From Chrysomallon squamiferum (lineage: Eukaryota > Mollusca > Gastropoda > Neomphalida > Peltospiridae), in the NCBI GenBank assembly GCA_012295275.1, contig CM022673.1, forward strand, positions 11,574,288 through 11,638,287: 64,000 nt of DNA, in the 5' to 3' direction. A model generated the notes under the pieces. That model was not told the DNA's origin, searched no databases, and was given only the letters and a program-made list of their open reading frames with translations. Of this stretch, positions 1 to 62,735 are shown piece by piece (position 1 is the first letter of the stretch; the number at the start of each line of letters is the position of its first letter). A program made the translations under genes and the position numbers.

Positions 1-491
1 ATTTAGTTACAGGTAAACAGCATTCTTTGTTTTGTATTTTAATAAGTAACTGTTGAAAGTGACAAGACAATTGATTTTTGTATGAATTTGGCAGCATTCA
101 CGTTTTTTAAAACCTTTCTTTGAGAGGTGAGTAAAAACTTTAATATGAATGAAAAAGTACAAAAATTGTTTTGCCCATTGTTCTTCCAAGAGCTTAGAAC
201 CTATTGAAATTGTATTTCCCCCACTAACTCATCTTTCTGATGGTTTCCTGCCATTTATTTGGCTTGAATATCATCTTTTACTTTTATGTATTAAAATAAA
301 TCAAATCATTTTTGAAGAATAAAAAATAAGGAAAGATTCAGTGTACAAAATGTTTATAAATTTATAACAAAAAATTCTTTTTTATTCTGAAATTGTAGTG
401 GTTAAAAAGGTTTGATAATTAAAAAATTCCAAATTTGACAAAAAATAAGAAGAAATTTTTCAGTTCATTTTGTTTAAACCTTTTGTTGTAG
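1..491 (+). other. Intron of GID8 (3' part)
   Basis: This AT-rich stretch has no supportable coding exon. It ends in a pyrimidine-rich acceptor whose AG lies at 490-491, directly before the first visible GID8 exon, so it is read as the end of an intron whose donor lies left of the window. Short open frames here are chance frames. Confidence 0.7.
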
Positions 492-1783
492 AAGGCTTCA
501 AAGAAGCCGCAGAGAAGTTTCGTCTGGAATCCGGAATCCAGCCACCGATGGATCTTGATGAATTGGACGACAGAATCCGAATCAGAGAAGCCATACAGAA
601 TGGTCATATACAAGATGCAATCTGCATGGTCAATAACCTATACCCAGAGTTACTTGACAATGACAGATATCTTTACTTCAGACTTCAGGTCTGTTATATC
701 TAATATGTCTTTTAATAAACAGCTTTAACCCTTTTTATATATTCAGTATAATATCAGCCTTTCCTAATAATAAAGTATGCCTATAAAATTATAAATTTCT
801 CATTTATTAAGTTATGATAATAAATATGTATCAATAGTACGTAAATAAAAAACAAGACAGTTAATACTTCATTCCAGTTAGTCTTTCTTCAGCATTTTTT
901 AAATTTTACATTCACATTTAATGTTGTCATGGTTAACACTGTTATCAGTAGTAAAATATTTAGAAGGAAGATCTGGCAGTTTTAAAATAATTAAAAATGT
1001 TTTAAAAATAATTTTAAAAATATTACGGGCACTCATAAATTGTTTTAAACTTCATTTCAGATTGGACAATATAAATAAACGATATATGTGTATATTTTGT
1101 TTATACTATAGCAACAGAAGCTGATTGAATTGATACGTGAAAAAAACATTGAGTTGGCACTGGAATATGCACAGTCACATCTTGCAGAGAGAGTCGAAGA
1201 AAATCCTGAGGTTTTGTCTGAACTTGAGAGGACTTTAGCTTTGTTGGCTTTTGAAGAACCAGAGAATTCACCATTTGGGGAACTTCTGCATCCCTCACAG
1301 AGGCAAAAGGTTATATGAATCACAAATGAGCATGCATAAGAACATGTCTGAATACATGTAAAACATGTATATATTTATTTATGCATACACTCTAAATATT
1401 GCATAGAAAAGAGATGAATGTTTGGTATCTGAAAACGTTTATTTTAGAATTTAGTTTTGAAATTAAAAACTCTAGGACTAAATGTAAAAATAGATGATTA
1501 GATAAGAATCATGACTTTGGTTTCTTTGTATTTTGATAAATAGTCTCTTGAAAATTTTAAATCTAGAAGAGATTCCTTATTTTTGTGTAATTTTTTATTT
1601 ATTTGATTTATTTATTAGGTTGCAAGTGAACTAAATGCAGCAATATTAGAGGTGGATTCTACTCCGAGACTTGCCAATCTTTTAAAGCTGTTGCTATGGG
1701 CACAAGAGGAACTCGAGAAGAAGAAAGTGAAGTATCCAAAAATGGTGGACATAGCAAAAGGCACTATAGAAGACACTAAATGA
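492..1783 (+). CDS. GID8: GID8 (CTLH/GID E3 ubiquitin ligase complex subunit), 3' part
   Basis: GID8 (TWA1) is a scaffold subunit of the GID/CTLH RING ubiquitin-ligase complex and uses LisH, CTLH and CRA segments for assembly. Three coding exons are visible: 492-688, 1112-1309 and 1619-1783. All use GT..AG borders and phases are consistent (the first starts 2 bases into a Glu codon; the others join in phase 0). About 186 residues are present, starting at [10 protein letters not shown], which is the end of LisH. The CTLH part contains NRYLYF-like [10 protein letters not shown], then [10 protein letters not shown] and [15 protein letters not shown], and the CRA tail has [22 protein letters not shown]. 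These match the family closely and little else. The first 39 or so residues lie left of the window. The stop codon is TGA at 1781-1783. It is convergent with NUP35. Confidence 0.95.
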
Positions 1784-10788: not shown

Positions 10789-10807
10789 AACTTAAAAAAA
10801 AAAAAAA

Positions 10808-13800
10808 ATGGTTGTTGTAAAGGAAATTGAAGAGAATGGAGAACAAAATGTTTCTGTTGCAGTAGACAGTTCTACCACTGCTCAGACAAAAGTTGAAGCA
10901 GTTGGAGGAGTCAGTGATACTTCCAGCTCAAAAACCGAGATAGTAAATGAAGAGACAATTAAATTGAATCCACCTGTTGATAAAATGATGGATTCTTCAA
11001 AGAACTCAGGGGAGCCAGTTAAAACTTCATCAGAACAAAAGCCTGCACTGAGCAGTAAAACAAAAATTAAATCTGATGACTCCAGTGATTCTGCAGCAAA
11101 AACAAAGGCAGCATCTGCTGGTGGTAAACAACATTTTACTGACTACAGCAAAGTTAGAAAGCAATTAAAGTCTGTAAATATGAGCCAGACTGAAAGTTTC
11201 CATAAAGCCAAAAAAGAGCCAAAGGCTGTGAGCATGAAACAGTCTGTGGAATCTTTAAGCAAAGACAAAAAGAAATGTGAGCCAGATAAAAGTAATGAAA
11301 AATTACCCAAATCTAAGGGTAAACAATGTTCTGATACTGTCCAGCATGAACAGAAAGTTCAAGACACTGTTAGTGCTAAAGACAAAGTAGATAAAAAGAA
11401 ACATGAACCTGAAAAAACTGATGAAAAATTGACCAAATCTTCAGATAAAAAAGATACTAGTAAAATGCAGCAGAAAGTTCCAGATACAGTTCCTACTAAG
11501 GAAGAAATAGAGACCAAGAAATGTGCATCTGGAAAAAGTGATGAAACTTTACAGAAATCTTTGGATAAAAAATATTCTGGTATAAAGCAAGATGGACAGA
11601 AACTGCCAGATACTGAAACTGTTGAAGAAGAAGTGAAAAAAAGGTCTAATGAACAGAACACTGCCTCTGTAGTTCAGGAAACTCAAAAGAAATCAAAACA
11701 TAAGAGTAAAAAGTCTAAATCAAAAAATAAAGATAACTCAGAAAAGCATGGAACCTCAGAATGCAAACCTACTGAGCCGCTTGAAAATAACACAACAGCA
11801 TCAGATGTTAATAAAAGTCATTCATCACAATCATCATCATTGTCTGAAAATGGTAAAGAAATTGATTGTGGAAGTAAATGTCTTGGTGACAACATTACAA
11901 AGACTGGCAATCAGAATTCAGTCATCAAGAGTGATATTCCAGAAATAAGGGAAGCCTCAAAAACTGATGAGTGTAAACCAAAACAGAAAACAGAAACAAA
12001 GAAAGTACATGAAAAAGGAGCATCTGTTCTTGGCAGACGTATTCAAGTAGTGAAGTTTGATTCTTCAGATGAATCTTCTGTTCAAGAAGAAAACACAACC
12101 TCAGTCAAACAGACAACACTAGAACAGCCTAGATCAACAAGTACAGAACAGACAAGAGCAGTAGAGACAAAACCAGTTGCCACAGGACAGACAAAACAAG
12201 TTACTACAGAACAGACAAAAAATGCAGAAGAGAAACATGTTACTTCAGAACCAATAAGGCCAGTGTACAATTCAAAACATTGGATTAAAAATGTTATAGA
12301 GCGTTTGAAAAAAGCTGAGGTTCATAATGAAGTAATGCTGGAGTTTTCTCAATGTAAGACAGATACTCAGAGATTTGCTTGTTTGTACATGCAGCCTGCT
12401 GTACATGAGGTAATTCATATCGAAGAATGGAACAAAGAAAAATCAGAAGTGGAAGCCAGAGTATTGCGAACATCAGGCAATAAGTCTTTTCAAAAGAAAC
12501 ACTTTAAAGAAGCCCTTGAAATGTATTCAGAGAGCATACTGAAGGCACCCATGGAACCTGACAGTAGTGAATTAGCTTTGGCCTTTGCCAACAGATCTGT
12601 AGTATTTTATCATCTGAAGATGTATGTCCTCTGTTTGCAAGACATTGAATTTTCACTGAAGTATGGTTACCCTGAACACAATAAATATAAACTGTATGAG
12701 AGGAAGGGGAAGTGTTGTTACCATCTAAAGATGAAAGAAGAAGCTGTTTTGTCAATTGAACAAGCTATTGAGTTTGCAGAGAAAGCCAAACTCCCAGAAA
12801 ACAAGATAAACAAATTAGTATATGACCTAGAAAAGGAACTTGATCAGATTGAAAAAATAAAAGGTAGCTCAGTTGAAATTCCTATAGCCAAGACATTTAA
12901 CAAAAACCATGGTCCCATTCCTTCTGTGGAAGGAAAGCTGAGTTCCAAGATTCCATGCATGTCATCAAGTGTTGTTTTGAGACATACAGAACAAAGAGGA
13001 AGAGGTCTGTTTGCAGAACGAGACATTGAAGTAGGAGAAGTGCTGATTGTGGAAAAACCATACAGTTCTTTGATACTGAAAGGATATGAACTGAATCATT
13101 GTCATCATTGCTGTAACAGTCTGTTGGCACCTTTGCCTTGTCACTATTGCAGTGGTGTAGCATTTTGCAGTGAAGAGTGCCAGACCAAGGCATGGGAATC
13201 ATATCACTATGCCGAATGCAAGTATCTGGTTCTTATTGAGAAAGCTGATATTGGAATGTCTCATCTGGCTCTGCGCATGGTCCTCAAAGCTGGTTTTAAT
13301 TACATTAAACAGTTTGAACAAGATAAAGAGGATACAATCTATCCATTGAAAAAAGGCTGCAACAAAGATGGGGTTTATGATTCAGCTAATTACAATACCG
13401 TATATAATCTTGAAGGGCACAGCAAAGACAGATCAACAACAGATCTTTTACAACGCACACTCACAGCCATATTTCTGGTGAAATGTCTGAAACGCACATC
13501 GTATTTCCCACCAATAACTGCAGAAGAGTCTAATAGTGACTTTGGGAAGGATGAAGATGAAGATCATGCCCTGGTAGGAAGTCACATTCTCAGACATATT
13601 CAGATGCTGCCCTGCAATGCTCATGAAGTATCTGAACTGGAATGGAACTCCTCTGATTTTGAACTGTCAGAGGTTTATGAATTTGGATCTGCCATCTACC
13701 CAGTTCTCAGTCTGATTAATCACTCTTGTGATCCATCAGTTGTCCGTCATTCCTATGGTGACCTGTGTGTAGTGAGAGCCATCAGGAACATCTACAAAAA

Positions 13801-14278
13801 TGAAGAACTTCTTGACAACTATGGAGCTCTATATGCCTTGACAAAAGGGCCTCAGAGACAAGAAAAGCTTTTTTCACAGTATTATTTTCACTGTGATTGT
13901 ACTGCCTGCAAGAATGACTGGCCACTGTATTCTGATATTCCTCAAGAATGCCCTGTCCTCAAATGTAAGAAGTGTTTTGGTCCAATATTTATTCCATCTG
14001 ATGGCAGGAATGAAAGAGCTATGTGTTGTGGATGTCGTGAAGTTCATGATATTACTCATGATCTCTTGCATTTGTCAAGGTCTGAAGAGCTGTACCAATG
14101 TGCCCTGGAGAAAACACTGAAAGGACAAGATCTGGAGGAAAATCTGCCTATCTTAATCCAACATCTACGTCTGCTTGATCCTCTTCTTTGTCGACCTTGG
14201 CGGGTGATTACAACAACTGCCAAGAAGCAATTAAGCAGTGCTACAGCACAATGGGAAATTGTATCAAAGGAAAAATAG
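10808..14278 (+). CDS. SMYD4: SMYD4-like TPR-MYND-SET protein with Lys-rich N-terminal extension, single coding exon
   Basis: Predicted SET-domain lysine methyltransferase of the SMYD4 group. Order: residues 1 to about 480 are Lys/Ser/Glu-rich and look disordered, with three imperfect repeats of about 41 residues (roughly 155-278). TPR-like helices span about 550-690 (TSGNKSFQKKHFKEALEMYS, ALAFANRSVVFYHLKMY). The split SET N part is near 718-745 (RGRGLFAERDIEVGE) and the MYND zinc finger near 763-803 (CHHC, CHYC, CSEEC, HYAEC). SET C has NHSCDPS near 970 and LDNYG near 1003, and post-SET has HCDCTAC near 1028. So catalytic and zinc motifs look intact. At 1156 aa it is much longer than human SMYD4 (804), all from the N terminus. 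The start is fixed by an in-frame TAA 13 bases upstream. The open frame is intronless in an intron-rich neighbourhood. The last 25 codons seem frameshifted: see findings. A paralogue of SMYD4 is possible. Confidence 0.9.
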   Translation: MVVVKEIEENGEQNVSVAVDSSTTAQTKVEAVGGVSDTSSSKTEIVNEETIKLNPPVDKMMDSSKNSGEPVKTSSEQKPALSSKTKIKSDDSSDSAAKTKAASAGGKQHFTDYSKVRKQLKSVNMSQTESFHKAKKEPKAVSMKQSVESLSKDKKKCEPDKSNEKLPKSKGKQCSDTVQHEQKVQDTVSAKDKVDKKKHEPEKTDEKLTKSSDKKDTSKMQQKVPDTVPTKEEIETKKCASGKSDETLQKSLDKKYSGIKQDGQKLPDTETVEEEVKKRSNEQNTASVVQETQKKSKHKSKKSKSKNKDNSEKHGTSECKPTEPLENNTTASDVNKSHSSQSSSLSENGKEIDCGSKCLGDNITKTGNQNSVIKSDIPEIREASKTDECKPKQKTETKKVHEKGASVLGRRIQVVKFDSSDESSVQEENTTSVKQTTLEQPRSTSTEQTRAVETKPVATGQTKQVTTEQTKNAEEKHVTSEPIRPVYNSKHWIKNVIERLKKAEVHNEVMLEFSQCKTDTQRFACLYMQPAVHEVIHIEEWNKEKSEVEARVLRTSGNKSFQKKHFKEALEMYSESILKAPMEPDSSELALAFANRSVVFYHLKMYVLCLQDIEFSLKYGYPEHNKYKLYERKGKCCYHLKMKEEAVLSIEQAIEFAEKAKLPENKINKLVYDLEKELDQIEKIKGSSVEIPIAKTFNKNHGPIPSVEGKLSSKIPCMSSSVVLRHTEQRGRGLFAERDIEVGEVLIVEKPYSSLILKGYELNHCHHCCNSLLAPLPCHYCSGVAFCSEECQTKAWESYHYAECKYLVLIEKADIGMSHLALRMVLKAGFNYIKQFEQDKEDTIYPLKKGCNKDGVYDSANYNTVYNLEGHSKDRSTTDLLQRTLTAIFLVKCLKRTSYFPPITAEESNSDFGKDEDEDHALVGSHILRHIQMLPCNAHEVSELEWNSSDFELSEVYEFGSAIYPVLSLINHSCDPSVVRHSYGDLCVVRAIRNIYKNEELLDNYGALYALTKGPQRQEKLFSQYYFHCDCTACKNDWPLYSDIPQECPVLKCKKCFGPIFIPSDGRNERAMCCGCREVHDITHDLLHLSRSEELYQCALEKTLKGQDLEENLPILIQHLRLLDPLLCRPWRVITTTAKKQLSSATAQWEIVSKEK

Positions 14279-22714: not shown

Positions 22715-25700
22715 ATGGCTGAACCAAGCGGCAGTCCGATCATTATTCTTTCAGAAGGTTTGTTATCTTTACACTAACATATGTTTAAAACACCCTTTAT
22801 TAGTTAGAGTTAAGACCAAGTAGATACTATTAGAACAATAAGAGTTTGGTTAACTTGATCATTGAACGAACATTCCAATTTTGAAAACACTGAAACTCAG
22901 AGTTAATTTGCAACAATTTAAGTAAAATAGTAGGCGGTTAAACCTTCCTTTATGCTCGAAAATGATAGTACACGCAGTTACTGCGTCTAACTAATGAAAC
23001 AAAATATTTCATTTGCGAAGATAATTTGAATAATGAACATATTTAGATAACAGTAAACAGGAATCTAAATCACTTATACTATAAATAAATTCAAATTCAG
23101 ACTGGTTTAGTAAACACGAACCCTTGTGACTCGTCACTTGTGATAATGATATTACAGAAAAATATTTAAAACATTTTTTTTTTGAAAATAAACCCACATT
23201 TACAACAACCCTTGGATGTATGAACAATGGAAATTCATAAATCACAAATTGACAAATTATTAATGAGTTTGGAAACAGGTAGGATTTAAAATATTGTTAT
23301 ATAACCTGTTCATTTCATATTCGTGTTGACAGATGTATAAATTCTTCTTTAAACTATTGTTATTTTATTATTATTATTATTATTTTTGTTTCACACAATA
23401 TTATTTACATCAGGAAATTATTTTTGAACTAGTTATCAGTATATGTTTCTTATTGACTGGGTGTTAAACATTTTTTAGAATGTTATACCCAAGAAATTAC
23501 TGACTGTCTGGTTATAAATACAGTTCACATGTTTTCCTTTTCCTGATATAATCGGAACTTATTTCAAAGATAATAAAATATTATTTAGACATACATGTTA
23601 GAATTAATGAATATTTACAAGTAAATGCATGAAATATCTATATTGTATTTATATTCACAGTTTCAGAATGAAATTACAAAACAAAGTGTATTTTGAAATG
23701 TGTTGGCTAAAATTAGAATTAGCATGTTATTCACAGATAGCTAAGTGAAAGGGTGAAAACACTGATAAATAATTTATATGGGAATATTATGTTTTAATGT
23801 TTGATTCAGACACAACAGTTTTTGAACAAGGAAGTTATTTGTTTTAAAAGATTGTTAAAATGTCACCAAGTACTTGTTGCTATGGTGTTGGCAAACAAAA
23901 GCAAATTATATAAAAAGGTATATGTGTGTTGCGTGTAAAATTTACTTACCTAAATAAACTTTTGTTTTCATTATAGGTTTAATAATGTCATTTAATTTCA
24001 AAACCTTTATTATGCTGACTACTTTTGAACTTTGTTTGAAATGTCACTGAAGGCTTTTGATAATACATGTGTTATACATTCTGGTTAGAGTCCATGGTAG
24101 GTTTGTATACTATTTGGTGTTAACATTAAATAACAAATAATTGTAAGATATCTTAAATTCAATTTAAATAAAGAAGAATTATAGTAAATTCCAATGAAAC
24201 ATTTTAATTATTATATACAGACAGCTATAAAACACTATGTTCCTCTGATATAAACCTACTTGGACACACAAATATGCACCTTTCATATGAAGTTACTCAT
24301 AATGGATGTTACTGTACAAACATCATCATCAATCTTTCTTTTTTCTTCTTTCTCTCTTTCATAACGTGGATAAAGCAATCAGGTAGGCAGAGTAAAATGG
24401 TTTGCTTTTCTGCAGTGTTCAAGTACAAGAAATATTACTAGGTGTAGGTTTACTATGGGTAATTGAAACCACAGTGTAATATATACAGAACATAAAGTAA
24501 GTATGGACAGTTCATTTGAAAAGACCTTTCATTAAACAACAATACTGAATAACAAGAATATGTTAAGTGTGTATGTGTAAAATATGTTTTAACGTAACAT
24601 ACACACAAAATACACAACACATGTATATACATTCTTACATATGCATGTATGTATACATGTTTAGGCAGACAGTACACATATACATCTTGGTTACACACAC
24701 ACACACTGACACATATATTTATATAAAAACACAAACAGAAATGCTGTTTTGAAAACACATAAACAGAACACCAATACACATATATTATGAATAAACACAT
24801 GTGTACATATACAGAATAGTTATAAAACCTTGAAAACGAAATAAACAGGATAACAACAACACAAAGCCTTCATAACAGTTTGACTACATAAACTGGTATG
24901 TGAGGTTGAGCTGAAGACTACAGTAAAGTTAGCCACTATTGATGTTATCACACAATGATAAAGACTGTATAAATTATAGCCAGTTATCTGCAAAAGCCAC
25001 ATTTGTTTTTATTAGTGATTTCTGCTGGGAAAACACTGTTCTGTTATTTTGTACACCCAACATACTCAGTTTAGTCCTTCTGGACTTGGCCAGTTTATTA
25101 GGAGTGGGCTGTAGCTCAGTTGTAGCATAATGCTTGTCTGAGGAATAATTTGTCTCAGGATCCATTCTTCTCAGTGGATCAATTACTGTCCAATTAATTA
25201 TAGTATGTTTGATGAATCACAAGTTACGACAGGAGTTTCCTGTGTGTGGAATTTGCCCAAAAAGTATCCCTTGCTGTTATTCAGTAAAAGATCATATAGA
25301 ATGATAGCAGTGGGTTTCATTTTTCCAGTTGTAGCTTAGCTATTGGAATTTTGATTTTGATGTGTGATAGGCTCTCAGATCAATACTCATCAGTGCATCC
25401 ACAGCTGGCATATAAAAACAACTGTTAATATAAAAATACATCACACATTTTTGTGACTTTAATTGTTTTTAATTATTAATTATTTATTTTTTATTATTAA
25501 TAATTGAAGTAACTATCATTCTTCTTTAGGATACAATAATAAATATTACAATAAATAAATAAATAAAAATAACCTTGTTAAATTTTTATGACTAATTCTG
25601 AATAAAACTAAACAGATAAAGAAATGCATGACTTTGAAATGTCAACACTGTAAATTAATAAATGATAGCAATAAATAAATATAAGTAGTAAATAAAAACA

Positions 25701-35831: not shown

Positions 35832-38275
35832 GACACATACAAACACAAAGGTGAAGATTCCTAATGTTATAATTATTTTGTCTGTTCTTAACAGCAGTAC
35901 TGAATATTTTTATATATGCCTCTTTTGACATAATACAAGTCGTATGGGGCTGTATGTGCTAGACTTTGAGAAAATCCTTACTTTTCTCAGTTTATCTTTA
36001 TCATGGCCGTTCCTTTGGTAGTGTTTGTGATGAAGAATCAAATCTGTTTGTAACGAATCTGAGAGAGACGGCTTCTTGTAGGCATTTCTATTTTTGGTAT
36101 ATATATGTGTGTTTTATTGGATATGAATTTAGTAGGTAAATAAATTGAAATATTATGTATGTTTATACAGGGTTTGGACTTCAAACAAGAAATATAGTCA
36201 GAACTGTCAATGTAAAAAAAAAGTGACAGATACTTGTTTGTGATAATTTATTCACAAACAGACACACACACACATACATGCACGCATGCACATTCACACA
36301 CTGAAGACATAAAGACACACACACATATACACATTTGTATCCTGATTTCTCCCAAAAAGGAGATAACCATTTTACTTGATTTCATTTTAAAAATTTGCAT
36401 TACCATCCTTAAAGTATTTACTTCTTTTAATTACAAATGCCATTGCCATATACATTTATTTCTGTTCAGTTGCTATGAGTAATAAGGATTCTATGAGTTT
36501 GCTGTTACTTAGGAACAGTGAGAATTAATAAGGTGGCTATGTCTTCAGAACTAAAGAATATTTTATACGTATCAGACTGAATTTCATTTTAGAACTGTGA
36601 TATACTGAACATAATTTTGTGTGTTTTCTTTCTTCAGGCTTTATTATGTAGTAAGATAATTTCTTGTTAATTTTTATTGCATTTTATTATTATTGTATTT
36701 TTAATGCTGTAAGAATATTTTTGTTGTGTTTACACAAGATCTTCATGAAATGTGTTTTCTTTATTTTCAGATGATGATGACGATGATGATGACGTTGTGT
36801 TGGTTAAAGAGGAAAAAATAAATCCTCAAGATGATGATGATGTTGTTTTCATATCACGGACGCCAGCCACTCCTACAGCTACCACACAGTCGTTAAACTC
36901 TGACCAACCAACCACAATGAAAGAACTTGCAGCCAAAACAACAAGTGCCGTTGTTTCGTCATCAGGTGACATCACCTTCAAATTCAGCACCTCAGAACAG
37001 CTGACCAGCATGGACCCCTGTCCCCTGGATCTTTCCAACCATTATACCCAGAATGGAAGTTGCATATCATCCAATGACTCTTCTAGCATGAACCTCAAAG
37101 ACCTGTCAGAAACTGAAACCGGTGGAATATACTGCAAAGAATTCACTGGAGACACTGTTTCTGCTGATCTGTGCAAAGCCTATCTCAAAGACTCGTCTGA
37201 TGCTTCTTCTGGCAGACTTGATGTGTCATCTTCAAATACCAATGACGATAAATCATCAAGACAGAGTTCCTCACCACAAGGATTGTCTGCAAAATCTTCT
37301 AGTTTCAAAAATCTGATGCAGTCTTCTAAGTCTGGTCTGTTAGGTGGGTCAATGAATGCATTATCCACTGTACCCACTTGTCTAAGCTGCCGAGATAACA
37401 AACCTGTGTACAGCAAGGTGGAGAATATGAGATCAACTTCACACTGTGAAATAACCTGCACTCGTACTCCAACTGCATCAGGAATCAAGAACACGAATAA
37501 CTCAATGTTAAATTTAGATGATATTTTGAATAACACTGTTAACAGTTCATCAGATTTACTCAAATCTTTGTCTAATGACGACAAGCAATCTGCAGCAACC
37601 CCTAGTTTGAACATACCCCTACCCTCAGCTTCGTTTGTTCAGAAAAGTGCTAATCTTCCAAACAACAACTGTGATCAGACACAAAGCAATAACAGTGCCA
37701 CAGTTCCACAGTCTCTCAGCAAACCAGTTAATCCTGCTTCTTTGGATATTTTGCAAAATCTTTATGATGCATCCCAGCAAGTTCCTTCCGTAAGCAGCAG
37801 TCAGTTTGATATGTCAGGCAACATGACCACGAAAAAATCTGATGCTTACTCTTCATTTCTGACTAATGCCTCAGCCTCTGTTGGATCTGCCTCAAGTGTC
37901 GCTGTGAATGGCACTTCAATGAGAAAACGATGCAGCGTCGCATCGGACAATGACGATTTTCTGTGTGTTAAGGTAGCGAGGTCTGCCGAGGTGTGTGTTT
38001 TATGTAAAATGAGTCTGGTGGACTTGAAAGTTTCGCGATGCACACAGGGACATCCAGTTTGTGGAAGTTGTCTGGAAGGACAAGTCAAACTGATTCTCAC
38101 AGATAAACAGGTATAGATTTCACTTTCAACATTTTATTTCAGCACAACAGCAAAGTGTATAATTAAAAATGAAAATGTTATTTAATATTCATTTTGTGTT
38201 TTTTTTTTTCTTCCTCGAAATTGTTTTCTTACATAATGTAAACTGTGGTAAAATAAGCTTTAAATAAATCCATCA

Positions 38276-38310
<35 letters not shown>

Positions 38311-41300
38311 TTTATTATTACTGTTTTTGTTTTTCTTTCATTCTGTATTTACATATAGTTTTATTTAAATTTTCTATGTTTACAGGGATCACTTGAATGT
38401 ATAAAAGACATGTGTAACAGCTATTATCCAATGAGTAAGTATTATCATATTTAGTAAATTTACATCAGTGTTGTGTTTGATTTAACAGTGAAAAACTTTA
38501 TGGCTATGTATCTAACAAACACCATAAATTGATCCATTTATTTAAAGCCAATTTAGGGTCATACATCCCAAATTACTATTATTATTTCTTTCTTAACCCA
38601 TGTTTTTAGTAAGGAAATTGACTTTACCTTGTTCATTTTATTATGACCTAGTAATGTATAAATACATTTTAAAAATACTTCTGCCAGCATAAATACTCAG
38701 CCTTTAGAATACTTGCCAATATGTTTTAATAATATTTTGATTTTCTTTCAGGTGAACTAAAAAATGCTCTGCCATCATTGGTGGTGGACATCTTGGAGGA
38801 CAAACTTCACAAGGACTACATCAACTTCATCTCCGATATGATGATGACCAACGATGCCTCTTCGGGCAGGACGAAACATCCAGATGCTCCCATTGACCAT
38901 TCTGGCTTGAACTTTCTGTCATCCAGTGGATCTAGTGTGGAACCTAGCATAAGTAAAGGTGTATCAGTCAATTCCATGAGTGATCCCGGCAGTGAGTACA
39001 TTCCCACAGCAGAGTCAGTCCCAGATAAAAACAATGATCTGCCCTCTCACTGGTATCCCATGGATAAGAACACGGTAAATAAAATATATATATATGTACA
39101 TTAGATTTATGTGTGTACATGTTGTCAAAGATGCATAACATCCAGATATTTAATAAGAAAATGTGGATTGTGTGTGTTTGTTTATACTATTATTTGTAGG
39201 TATGTGTGTGTGGGTGTACATATTTATCTGTGTGTGTATGTACATACTTATGTGTGTGGTTGTATGTGAGTATGAATGTATGTGTATTTGTATATGAATA
39301 TGTACATGTGTATTTGTGTTTGACTATTTGATATATTTCTGTATACACATACATATACACACAATTATACACATGCACACAATACAGATCACTGCATACA
39401 GTACGCACAAATGCAGATACAAATATACACACTTACAATATTCTGAATTGATTTTCTCAGTCCATTCTGTTAGGTTTATATCACTCCATTTCATGTGGGG
39501 AAATGGCATATTTTGTACTAATTCTAAACTAGCAAAATAATTATGTGTATCTTTTATTTCAAAGTATTTTCTTCAGATTGCTTTTCTCCTAATTTTGAAC
39601 ATAACACTTTTTCACAGATGTGTTGATCTGTGTTTATACAACTTTATCATGATTTAAATATATTTTTCAGAATTTGCTCATTGTTGAGTTACAACCAGAA
39701 TCAGAAGAATACGTTGACATTGCCATCAAATTCCATCAGACTATGATGTTTCCAACCGTCGCTGATATAGCCAAGATATACCGTGTTCAGAATCCTATAC
39801 TGTGGAAATATTACAGCCTGTAAGTGTCAAATCAATACAAATATTGTATTCTGTTCTAGAAGTTTAATAATTGCCTCCAACTGAATACCACAAATTCATT
39901 TTAATGTGATAGAATTTTCTGCATTTATTTATTTTAATGAGTTCTTTTTACAGTTTAGTACAGCAACTGTATTTTGGAAAAAAATAAAAATAAAAATAAA
40001 AATATTAAAATTGATCATTTGTTTTCGTTTAATGGTCACATTTTCTCCTTTTATTTAAAAAATTTTTATTATTGTTTTAATATTTATTTTCTATAGTTGA
40101 ATATTTATATTTTTTACATTGAGGATATTTTTACATTTATCTCTGTGATTCAGAGGTACTAAGATATTTTTTATGTTCACGAAAAAAGTGCAAAATATTT
40201 ATTAAATAATTTGTTTGCAGAAAAAAGATGGAGATGGTACACGAAAATGACTGCCACGAGATTGACGTACGTTCTCTGTTTCATGGCACCACTAATTCCG
40301 TCGTCGAGGCTATTTGTCGAAAAGGATTTGATTGGCGAGTGTGCGGAAAACATGGTTGTGTTTATGGTCAAGGTATGTGTCTAACTTTTAACAGATTCAC
40401 TTGCTAGGTTCTGTGTAGCTGCAATGCATTCATTCACCCAAGTTTTTCTTTTAATTATTATATTTCCATCATAATCTTTACATCCACAGTCAGAAATTTA
40501 AAAAAAAAAAAAAATTGGAAAACATTAGTTCATTATAAAGATAATAAATTTTAAAATGTTTTTATTAAACATTTTCAGGCCTAACCAGTGCATAAAAGAT
40601 ATAAGTGTGTATGTTAGATTTAAGGCTGTTGATAGCAAATGATCAATGTTTTTTTTTGTTTTTTTTTTCCAGGTTGTTACTTTGCACGTGCTGCCTCCTA
40701 TTCACATCAGTACACAGATCAGATTAAAGGTTATGCTCGACAGCACATGACAAATTCTCTTCATCACCTCCAGTCACTGTTTGCAGCAGCAGCAGCAGCA
40801 TCCAGTCAGTCTCTGGTTCCTAAGCAGTGTTCTCCAGTCTCTGCACCGTTTCTTTCATCAGTCCCTCCTCCAGCTCACATGAAATTTGCTTCCCAGAAAG
40901 GACCACTTGTGCAAACCCAGAACACTAACATCGGAAGACAGATATATCGAATTTATGGTCCAGTGAACATTAACAACAGCCAGCCTCCAGTTTCAGTCCC
41001 AGTGAAAATGCCTAGCCGATGTATTTCGGCGTCTGCAGATTTGAATTCGAGTCATGGTTCGCTGAATCAGACGACTAACATGTCGTATTCAGTCGGCTCT
41101 TTCTTCCTAAACTGTGCGTTGATGCTAGACAGCAGAAAGATGCAGAATTCCATTTCGCAGAGTAACTCAACTAGTACTACAATGACTACTTCTACCACAC
41201 CAACTGTGCCGTCCTCCAACACTCCTTATGTCAGGCAACACAGTGATAACACACCCAAAAAGGACACGAAGGAACAGGTTGTCTCATTATCCGACATCGT

Positions 41301-41529
41301 CAATGCCCCAACAAGAAAAATGTTTCTTGCCAATGTTCTCGTGGGCAAGTACACTGGAGGAAAAAGCTGTCTACGCAAGCCTCCACCCCTGTACCCAGCC
41401 AATCCTTATGGAAAATCTTACGATTCATGTGTGGATGACATCTTTGACCCGAAAATTGTCGTTATCTTTGACAGTAATCAGGCCTACCCTGAATACATTA
41501 TTGAGTACAATTACTCGGGTGACTGTTGA
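22715..41529 (+). CDS. SIM-RING1-PARP fusion: TIPARP-like mono-ADP-ribosyltransferase with RNF216-type RING1 domain
   Basis: Coding exons: 22715-22757, 36771-38110, 38386-38434, 38752-39074, 39671-39819, 40221-40372 and 40673-41529. All have GT..AG borders and consistent phases, giving 970 aa. Order: SIM-like IIILSE (9-14), eight Asp (15-22), VVLVKEE (23-29), DDDDVVFI (35-42), then a Ser/Asn-rich disordered stretch. A C3HC4 zinc domain follows at 423-471 (C423, C426, C438, H442, C445, C448, C466, C471), then YPMSELKNALP; spacing and tail match RING1 of RNF216-type RBR ligases. No IBR or RING2 follows. The ART domain starts near HWYPMD (about 572) and carries LFHGTT (H656), GCYFARAASYSHQY (Y688) and DPKIVVIF (I947), the H-Y-I triad of mono-transferases such as TIPARP. 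About 200 residues are inserted inside the ART fold (about 700-900). Known family: ARTs modify proteins with ADP-ribose. Inferred: a SUMO- and E2-linked transferase. No CCCH or WWE domain seen. Confidence 0.85.
25103..25330 (+). mobile_element. Degraded tRNA-headed SINE
   Basis: The head AGTGGGCTGTAGCTCAGTTG carries a tRNA A-box, and AGGATCCATTC about 45 bases on is a worn B-box. The body has AAAGTATCCCTTGCTG and AGCAGTGGGTTTC blocks that resemble the central part of SINEs I know from mollusc genomes. Ends and target-site duplications are not clear. Confidence 0.6.
31118..31157 (+). other. Alternative first coding exon of the RING-PARP gene
   Basis: ATG at 31118 opens MSRLDCIEVFSSS and meets a good donor, TCAG|GTAGGA, at 31157/31158 in phase 1, the phase needed for the shared exon at 36771. 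The joined protein would read SSS followed by the Asp run and be 969 aa. The segment IEVFSSS before the Asp run looks like a SUMO-interacting motif with phosphorylatable serines. Evidence is frame, donor and motif only. Confidence 0.5.
32742..32818 (+). repeat. 38-bp tandem duplication, two copies
   Basis: The block GAGGCATATAGTATACCTTA plus TTAGTTTARAATTT occurs twice in a row, with nearly no differences, so the duplication is recent. Confidence 0.85.
33230..33545 (+). promoter_or_regulatory. GC-richer island with paired CRE half-sites inside intron 1
   Basis: Two copies of AATAACGTCA lie about 25 bases apart (33240-33275), with an ATTGG-type CCAAT box (CCAATCAG, near 33462) further on and several CpGs. 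Base composition stands out from the flanking AT-rich repeats. It lies 1.6-1.9 kb upstream of the exon at 35168, so it could be an internal promoter or enhancer. Confidence 0.35.
35168..35239 (+). other. Candidate 72-bp cassette exon of the RING-PARP gene
   Basis: Acceptor CTTACAG ends at 35167 and donor ATAG|GTATGT starts at 35240. The exon is 72 bp, with phase 1 at both ends and no stop in the required frame. It would insert 24 residues, EMRTPIQSVFGLEPSYYQVF plus RQFI, directly before the Asp run. Because it carries an ATG at 35170, it could also serve as a first coding exon after a noncoding one. Confidence 0.5.
35346..35485 (+). repeat. 31-bp minisatellite, about 4.4 copies
   Basis: The unit AACAATAGTATACTCTGTAC plus ATCTYTCATTT repeats with few changes, starting about 107 bp downstream of the candidate cassette exon. 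Confidence 0.85.
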
Positions 41530-61373: not shown

Positions 61374-62735
61374 TTACGTGCTTTCAGGAAAGAGTTCATA
61401 CATGAGACTCTTGTCTTTGTCAAGCCACTTGTTACACGGGAATGTTGTCGTTTTGTTCGTGGCCATGTTTGTGACATCCACGTGATCCAGGTACCAGGAT
61501 GGTTTTAAACCAGTGTTGTCATGTTCGACTCTCATCTTTTTAAGTTCACCTTAAATAAAATAAAGTAAGAATTTAATCTACACTTGTATTGTGTCATACA
61601 TAAAATTATGGTTAAGGACCAGTCTGATATCTAGAGAGGAAACCCAGAGCAGTTATGTGAAGATGTTGTCTTTCTGGATTAGCAGCAAGATACCACTTTT
61701 GCACCTACTCATGGGCAGTAAAGCTGTTACCAAGGCCTGTGATAAATAAGTTGTACTGATAAAGGGAAAGAGTCTAATGGAGGGTGTCTAAAAGAACTGA
61801 TTAAAGTGACACATCAAATGTCAGCCTCTTCTCTAAATACAAAATAATTATACAACCCACCTACACAGACAGACACAAACACACACAGATATGTATAACA
61901 AATAAAAAAAACAATAAAAGAAAACAGTATTTGATATGAAATTGCTTTCCTTGATTATTTTTTTTTATCTCTTTAACGAATTCACTCAAAATATTGCAGC
62001 ATGCAAAAATCAGACATAAAATTAAACAACTGCAATAATATTAATAATATTTAAAAAATACACTGACATTATAAATAGAGACAAATATGCAGCAAGGTGT
62101 TTTTTTGTTTGCATATTTTCTTGTAATATAAAACATGTACCATAGCCATTAATACACAACCCAGATTTCACTGATCAGAATGGGAGAATAATCTTAAAGA
62201 AAACTGATGACGTTTGATCATTAACTGTCTGAGAATACAGTCAGCATTTTATGTCCAGTTCTTGTGTACGACATACCTAAATCTAGAGCCTCTATTTGGA
62301 ATTTGTCTTTCTGATTTCTTCCAAAACTTCTCCAGTTTTGGTTCAGAGAACGTCTGCCAGTGTCACCATGTTCTCCGAATATTGTCACAGACACATTGGA
62401 ACTTGTGGCTGCCCCCTTTTCATCTCCTGTGTGGAATGTCAGCTCATACTGGATAGATGCCAAGTCTGAAATGTCACATAAATAAATAAATAAATAAATT
62501 AATTAATTAACTGTTTACTTTAACTGGAAAGTAAGAAGACGAAGAAGAAGAAGAAATACTATAAACAAAATTACCACTCACAGAGACAAAAAAAAAAAAA
62601 AGAATAAAAAAAAGAAGAAGCAAAAAACAACCACAAAAATTAACAAGCAGTAACAAAAATCCCTGTTATTCCAATAATTTATTTCTAAAATGTGAATATC
62701 ATTTAATTTATGTATATCATAGTGTAATGGCATAT

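Follow-up and report, generated by a model that had tools for sequence, protein, structure and literature searches.

RBR enzymes are defined by the handover of ubiquitin from a RING1-bound E2 (ubiquitin-conjugating enzyme) to a cysteine in RING2. In RNF216, as set out in the available sections of PMC9834252, RING1 is the E2-binding part, an allosteric ubiquitin sits on the RING1-IBR helix and the IBR, and RING2 holds the catalytic Cys; figure legends (PMC9834252, PMC13153464) draw a SUMO-interacting motif (SIM) and a CUE domain before the RBR. Single chains that combine a ubiquitin-system part with a PARP have precedents, according to excerpts of PMC2964712 and PMC4245714, in a Dictyostelium U-box PARP and in fungal and moss UBCc PARPs, and parts of a 2025 review (PMC12687431) treat ubiquitin-related domains in PARPs, for example PARP10 and PARP6/8. 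Here we analyse a stretch of 64,000 nucleotides from the gastropod Chrysomallon squamiferum (the window; positions 11574288-11638287 of its contig, in an assembly of 404.6 Mb and 22 contigs) and describe a gene whose predicted product joins an RNF216-type RING1 directly to a PARP12-type ADP-ribosyltransferase (ART).

The RING1-ART gene has seven exons on the forward strand between 22715 and 41529 (Table 1), every intron is GT-AG, and a single open frame encodes a product of 970 amino acids. A preliminary description of the locus had placed the gene at 37985..41529 (3.5 kb); it actually spans 18.8 kb, with exon 1 outside those coordinates, located 14 kb upstream through its match to the N-terminus of a Gigantopelta protein and separated from exon 2 by an intron of 14,013 bases. 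Once this exon is included, the 970-residue length given in that description is exact, and the two joins that it had singled out for checking, 38110/38386 and 39074/39671, are correct GT-AG junctions that keep the frame. The protein carries, in order, three SIM-like motifs, a PLDLS sequence, which we take to be a CtBP-type motif, a RING with eight zinc ligands, a long helix, and an ART with a disordered insert of 200 residues. Its closest relative is a Gigantopelta aegis protein (72% identity over the searched part), to which it is 92% identical in the SIM region, 88% in the RING and helix, and 90 and 86% in the two halves of the ART, with identity falling to 37-41% in the linkers, the ART insert, and the long disordered parts.

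The same RING and ART layout, here called class A, was recognized with a RING profile among the retrieved relatives in 25 other proteins (P0001-P0021, P0023, and P0026-P0028). A first protein search had given 22 proteins and an alignment search 86, from the best 7988 candidates scored; the protein search reaches relatives that share short exact words and are of limited length, and absence outside molluscs is not implied. The search of other proteomes for this pairing, which the preliminary description had suggested, thus returned 25 separate proteins, mostly molluscan. All 18 with a given taxon come from gastropods, bivalves, or a chiton (Gigantopelta, Haliotis, Batillaria, Physella, Patella, scallops, oyster, pearl oyster, mussel, Solemya, freshwater mussels, Mactra, Mya, and the chiton Liolophura), and the other seven are without an organism name. 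The named records are mostly titled "uncharacterized protein," and Pfam detects only their PARP part. Counts over 26 class A proteins comprise the window protein and these 25 relatives, and exclude P0022 (whose frame leaves the RING), P0024 and P0029 (whose models start after the RING), and P0087 (which ends in the RING). Because 25 other proteins share the layout, the pairing is real and old and no artefact of gene models. That gene prediction has joined two adjacent genes is barely conceivable, being already contradicted by the same order in these separate proteins and by five contigs of 3.0-3.7 kb (P0008, P0017-P0020; RNA source not stated) that code 904-1041 residues without interruption and have the size of a spliced message, as against the 18.8 kb needed in the window.

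The zinc ligand spacing that had been read from the window, C-x2-C-x11-C-x3-H-x2-C-x2-C-x17-C-x4-C, is exact at residues 423-471, and all eight ligands are invariant across the 25 aligned class A relatives. A RING fold is predicted for P0001, with block values of the predicted local distance difference test (pLDDT) of 77-94 over residues 471-560. RING profiles were built from 16 sequences (A2) and from 6 (A6), and the class A RING matched RNF216 in a profile search of the PDB (E = 1.9e-6). It also matched, with an hhalign value of 99.4%, another family of molluscan proteins, class B (16 matches), which has an RNF216-type RING1, a complete IBR, a weak CUE-like region, and then an ART at the position of RING2. 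The RING1-IBR of class B in turn matches the solved RNF216 with E = 1.3e-21. These profile matches to RNF216 and to the class B RING1 bear out the earlier assignment of the zinc domain, and because of them the window RING is, as judged from sequence, an RNF216-type RING1, with the ART taking the place of the catalytic RING2. The earlier statement that neither IBR nor RING2 follows RING1 also holds, as the linker contains no Cys in the window protein and at most one in any of the 26 class A proteins, and the ART comes directly; no RING2 with a catalytic Cys is present in the window protein or in the aligned class B proteins. Classes A and B jointly hold the parts of RNF216 apart from RING2. The molluscan proteins share with RNF216 (TRIAD3) the RING1 ligand spacing, tail, and next helix and have SIM-like motifs where RNF216 has SIMs ahead of the RBR; the class B proteins further resemble it in their IBR and CUE-like region. 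They differ in having an ART for RING2 and no catalytic Cys, and class A lacks the IBR as well.

Mono-ARTs have an H-Y-Phi signature, that is His and Tyr with a hydrophobic third residue. The window protein matches Pfam PF00644 with 77.7 bits (cut-off 26.7) and PARP12 (2pqf) with E = 3.6e-42, so that of the TIPARP-like ART with an H-Y-I triad proposed previously, the PARP type and the triad (H656-Y688-I961) stand and the affiliation shifts, PARP12 being nearer than TIPARP. Every one of the 26 class A proteins has I, L, or V as the third residue, and the ART would accordingly be classed, by its residues, as carrying the triad typical of mono-transferases. ART sequence, fold, and triad are common to the PARP12 group (PARP12, PARP7/TIPARP, PARP11, and PARP13), from which the molluscan proteins differ by their RING1, by an ART insert of 90-400 residues, and in that no WWE domains or CCCH fingers were found; in the window protein a Pfam scan of residues 16-970 at E up to 1 gives PARP alone. 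A tree of ART domains from 19 of the 26 class A proteins (window protein included), 12 of the 16 class B proteins, and 25 chosen other PARPs groups class A with class B (support 95/89).

Within this tree P0026 and P0027 branch outside all remaining class A proteins, the chiton included, and given their position the class A family may predate molluscs. In class B, Mytilus P0098 and P0101 have FN3 and SH2 matches preceding the RING1-IBR-ART, and one of these records is named ABL1. P0101 and P0103 are incomplete models; class B motif and contact-residue tallies cover 15 of the 16 proteins (P0095 out), and one alignment covers 14 (P0095 and P0103 out).

The motifs ahead of the RING suggest where such an enzyme might act. 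The class A proteins start with acidic stretches that contain the SIM-like motifs; at least one such motif is found in 24 of the 26 and at least two in 15, PLDLS occurs in 21 as compared with 0.08 expected from shuffles, and the class A consensus has a basic LPPKK-type stretch before the RING. We favour, with a probability of about 0.45, a nuclear mono-ADP-ribosyltransferase directed to SUMO and CtBP and built on the docking parts of the RNF216 front half. The SIM-like motifs, PLDLS, and the basic stretch would recruit the protein to nuclear corepressor complexes that carry SUMO. Its RING1-helix unit would either give it a foothold in the ubiquitin system, by way of ubiquitin or an E2, or serve to hold the protein together, and the ART would attach single ADP-ribose units to whatever is held there; the long ART insert may form a loop that regulates the enzyme or is modified by it. 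The window protein is not expected to ligate ubiquitin, since it has no RING2 to form the thioester and its RING is without a basic linchpin: the residue after the final RING Cys is N in the window protein, and 25 of the 26 class A proteins have D, N, S, G, E, or M there, with Arg in one.

How much of the RBR function survives in the front end is where the alternatives differ. The preliminary description had proposed that RING1 recruits E2~ubiquitin and that the ART could modify the E2 itself, the ubiquitin on it, or a shared target. The conserved RING1 helix after ligand 6 in class A agrees with this, as does the E2-contact residue between ligands 1 and 2, which is Leu in the window and Gigantopelta proteins, but 19 of the 26 class A proteins have a polar or charged residue or Gly there (N, Q, S, D, K, G, R, H, or T), and the 15 class B proteins in this tally have Ala, Ser, Gly, or Val. 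Moreover, the Tyr corresponding to RNF216 Y519, a residue described as important for activity in the available text of PMC9834252, is kept in 0 of 26 class A proteins. Drift at the contact position need not be fatal, as RNF216 itself has a Cys there and tolerates C517A (same sections of PMC9834252). With the contact residue not conserved and the Tyr lost, an ART steered by SIM-like motifs, PLDLS, and the RING1-helix unit is favoured, and recruitment of E2~ubiquitin is retained as an unlikely rival. It is unlikely that, with RING2 swapped for a PARP12-type ART in molluscs, the retained front end (RING1, the ubiquitin-binding RING1-IBR helix, and the IBR of class B) is still a sensor of E2-ubiquitin or of ubiquitin chains through which ADP-ribosylation of ubiquitin, the E2, or a SUMO/ubiquitin-tagged target is steered or activated.

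Drifting E2-contact residues beside retained zinc ligands and helix, together with the missing IBR, RING2, and linchpin, would also fit a RING1 that is a structural or dimerization leftover, with targeting wholly by the SIM-like and PLDLS motifs. The RING1-helix unit is, however, as conserved as the ART relative to Gigantopelta (88% versus 86-90%), beyond the need of a passive spacer, and we consider this explanation unlikely. A true RING E3 ligase acting in cis with the ART to produce ADP-ribose-ubiquitin hybrids, as Deltex and PARP do but in one chain, is very improbable. Two-chain hybrids do exist (sections of PMC12687431), but 25 of 26 class A proteins have no basic linchpin, RBR RING1 keeps E2-Ub open and disfavours direct transfer (excerpt of PMC9834252), and no DTC domain appears in the Pfam scan of the window protein.

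Several observations weigh against the SUMO/CtBP-directed mono-ART and the RNF216 ancestry on which it is built. The SIM-like counts are without a chance control, such motifs are missing in P0003 and P0019, whose models look shortened, and PLDLS is missing in 5 of the 26 class A proteins. Among the PDB profile matches, chains of the beta-TrCP WD40 domain rank close behind RNF216 (3.6e-5 to 7.4e-5), so that the RNF216 E-value alone is not decisive; the Pfam scan of the window protein gives no RING above cut-off; and the root mean square deviation from RNF216 in VIA is 11.6 Å, which is expected for hinged domains and is not a tight fit. Finally, neither a grouping of A with PARP12 (p = 0.24) nor one of B with PARP12 (p = 0.095) is rejected by the approximately unbiased test, and a single fusion event behind classes A and B is therefore likely but unproven.

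Table 1. Positions of the RING1-ART gene and of its encoded motifs and domains in the window.
Feature	Position	Strand	Remarks
Exon 1	22715..22757	+	Start codon, MAEPSGSPIIILSE; first SIM-like motif IIIL, codons from 22739; N-terminus also in Gigantopelta P0001
Exon 2	36771..38110	+	Remaining N-terminal region and RING ligands 1-6; GT-AG, open frame
SIM-like motifs 2 and 3	VVLV 36794-36805, VVFI 36842-36853	+	Within acidic runs
PLDLS motif, presumed CtBP-binding type	37022..37036	+	Class A count in text
RNF216-type RING1 (by profile), residues 423-471	37994..38415	+	Interrupted by intron 38111-38385
Exon 3	38386..38434	+	RING ligands 7 and 8; YPMSEL tail begins
Exon 4	38752..39074	+	Tail end, long helix, linker
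Helix LPSLVVDILEDKLHKDYINF at position of RBR RING1-IBR helix	38769..38828	+	Alignment to class B and RNF216; helix 540-565 predicted in P0001
PARP12-type ART, residues 574-970	39039..41526	+	Exons 4-7; Pfam PF00644, PARP12 2pqf
Exon 5	39671..39819	+	ART
Exon 6	40221..40372	+	ART; triad His656 codon 40282-40284
Exon 7	40673..41529	+	ART; Tyr688 codon 40678-40680, Ile961 codon 41497-41499, stop 41527-41529
Low-complexity insert in ART, 200 aa, residues 701-900	40717..41316	+	Mostly pLDDT <50 in P0001 model

Elsewhere in the window, an unbroken frame of 1160 amino acids at 10796-14275 (+) has SET, MYND, and TPR matches and is presumably SMYD4-like by its domain layout; an exon at 449-700 (+) has an above-cut-off CTLH match (GID8/RanBPM-like), and one at 62224-62502 (-) an above-cut-off PLAT/LH2 match. 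Among the 60 PARP-domain matches listed in the genome, 32 lie on contig C10, 25 of them within ~2.2 Mb (~15.27-17.44 Mb), which by these matches is a clustered expansion of ART genes.

The preliminary description knew of no single chain that pairs RING1 with a PARP. By title and abstract, no description of an RBR-derived or RNF216-PARP single chain was found among the open-access papers listed (for RNF216 in molluscs, 15 of 16,804), which agrees with that statement in its narrow form; more broadly, the published U-box-PARP and UBCc-PARP chains precede it. The Dictyostelium U-box-macro-PARP likewise has a ubiquitin-ligase-type domain and a PARP in one chain, but with a U-box and a macro domain, of other origin, and not derived from an RBR. 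The fungal and moss UBCc-PARP proteins (PARP6/8 type) join ubiquitin machinery to an ART through an E2 domain, with no E3 part and an ART of another clade, and in PARP9/DTX3L a ubiquitin E3 and an ART act jointly, but as two chains and with a Deltex RING-DTC. In the molluscan family, the recognition half of an RBR enzyme would have been kept and the catalytic half exchanged for an enzyme that writes a different mark. Such proteins would offer a naturally occurring case for examining what a RING1-IBR unit can do by itself, and SUMO, ubiquitin, and ADP-ribose signalling may converge in them on a single polypeptide.
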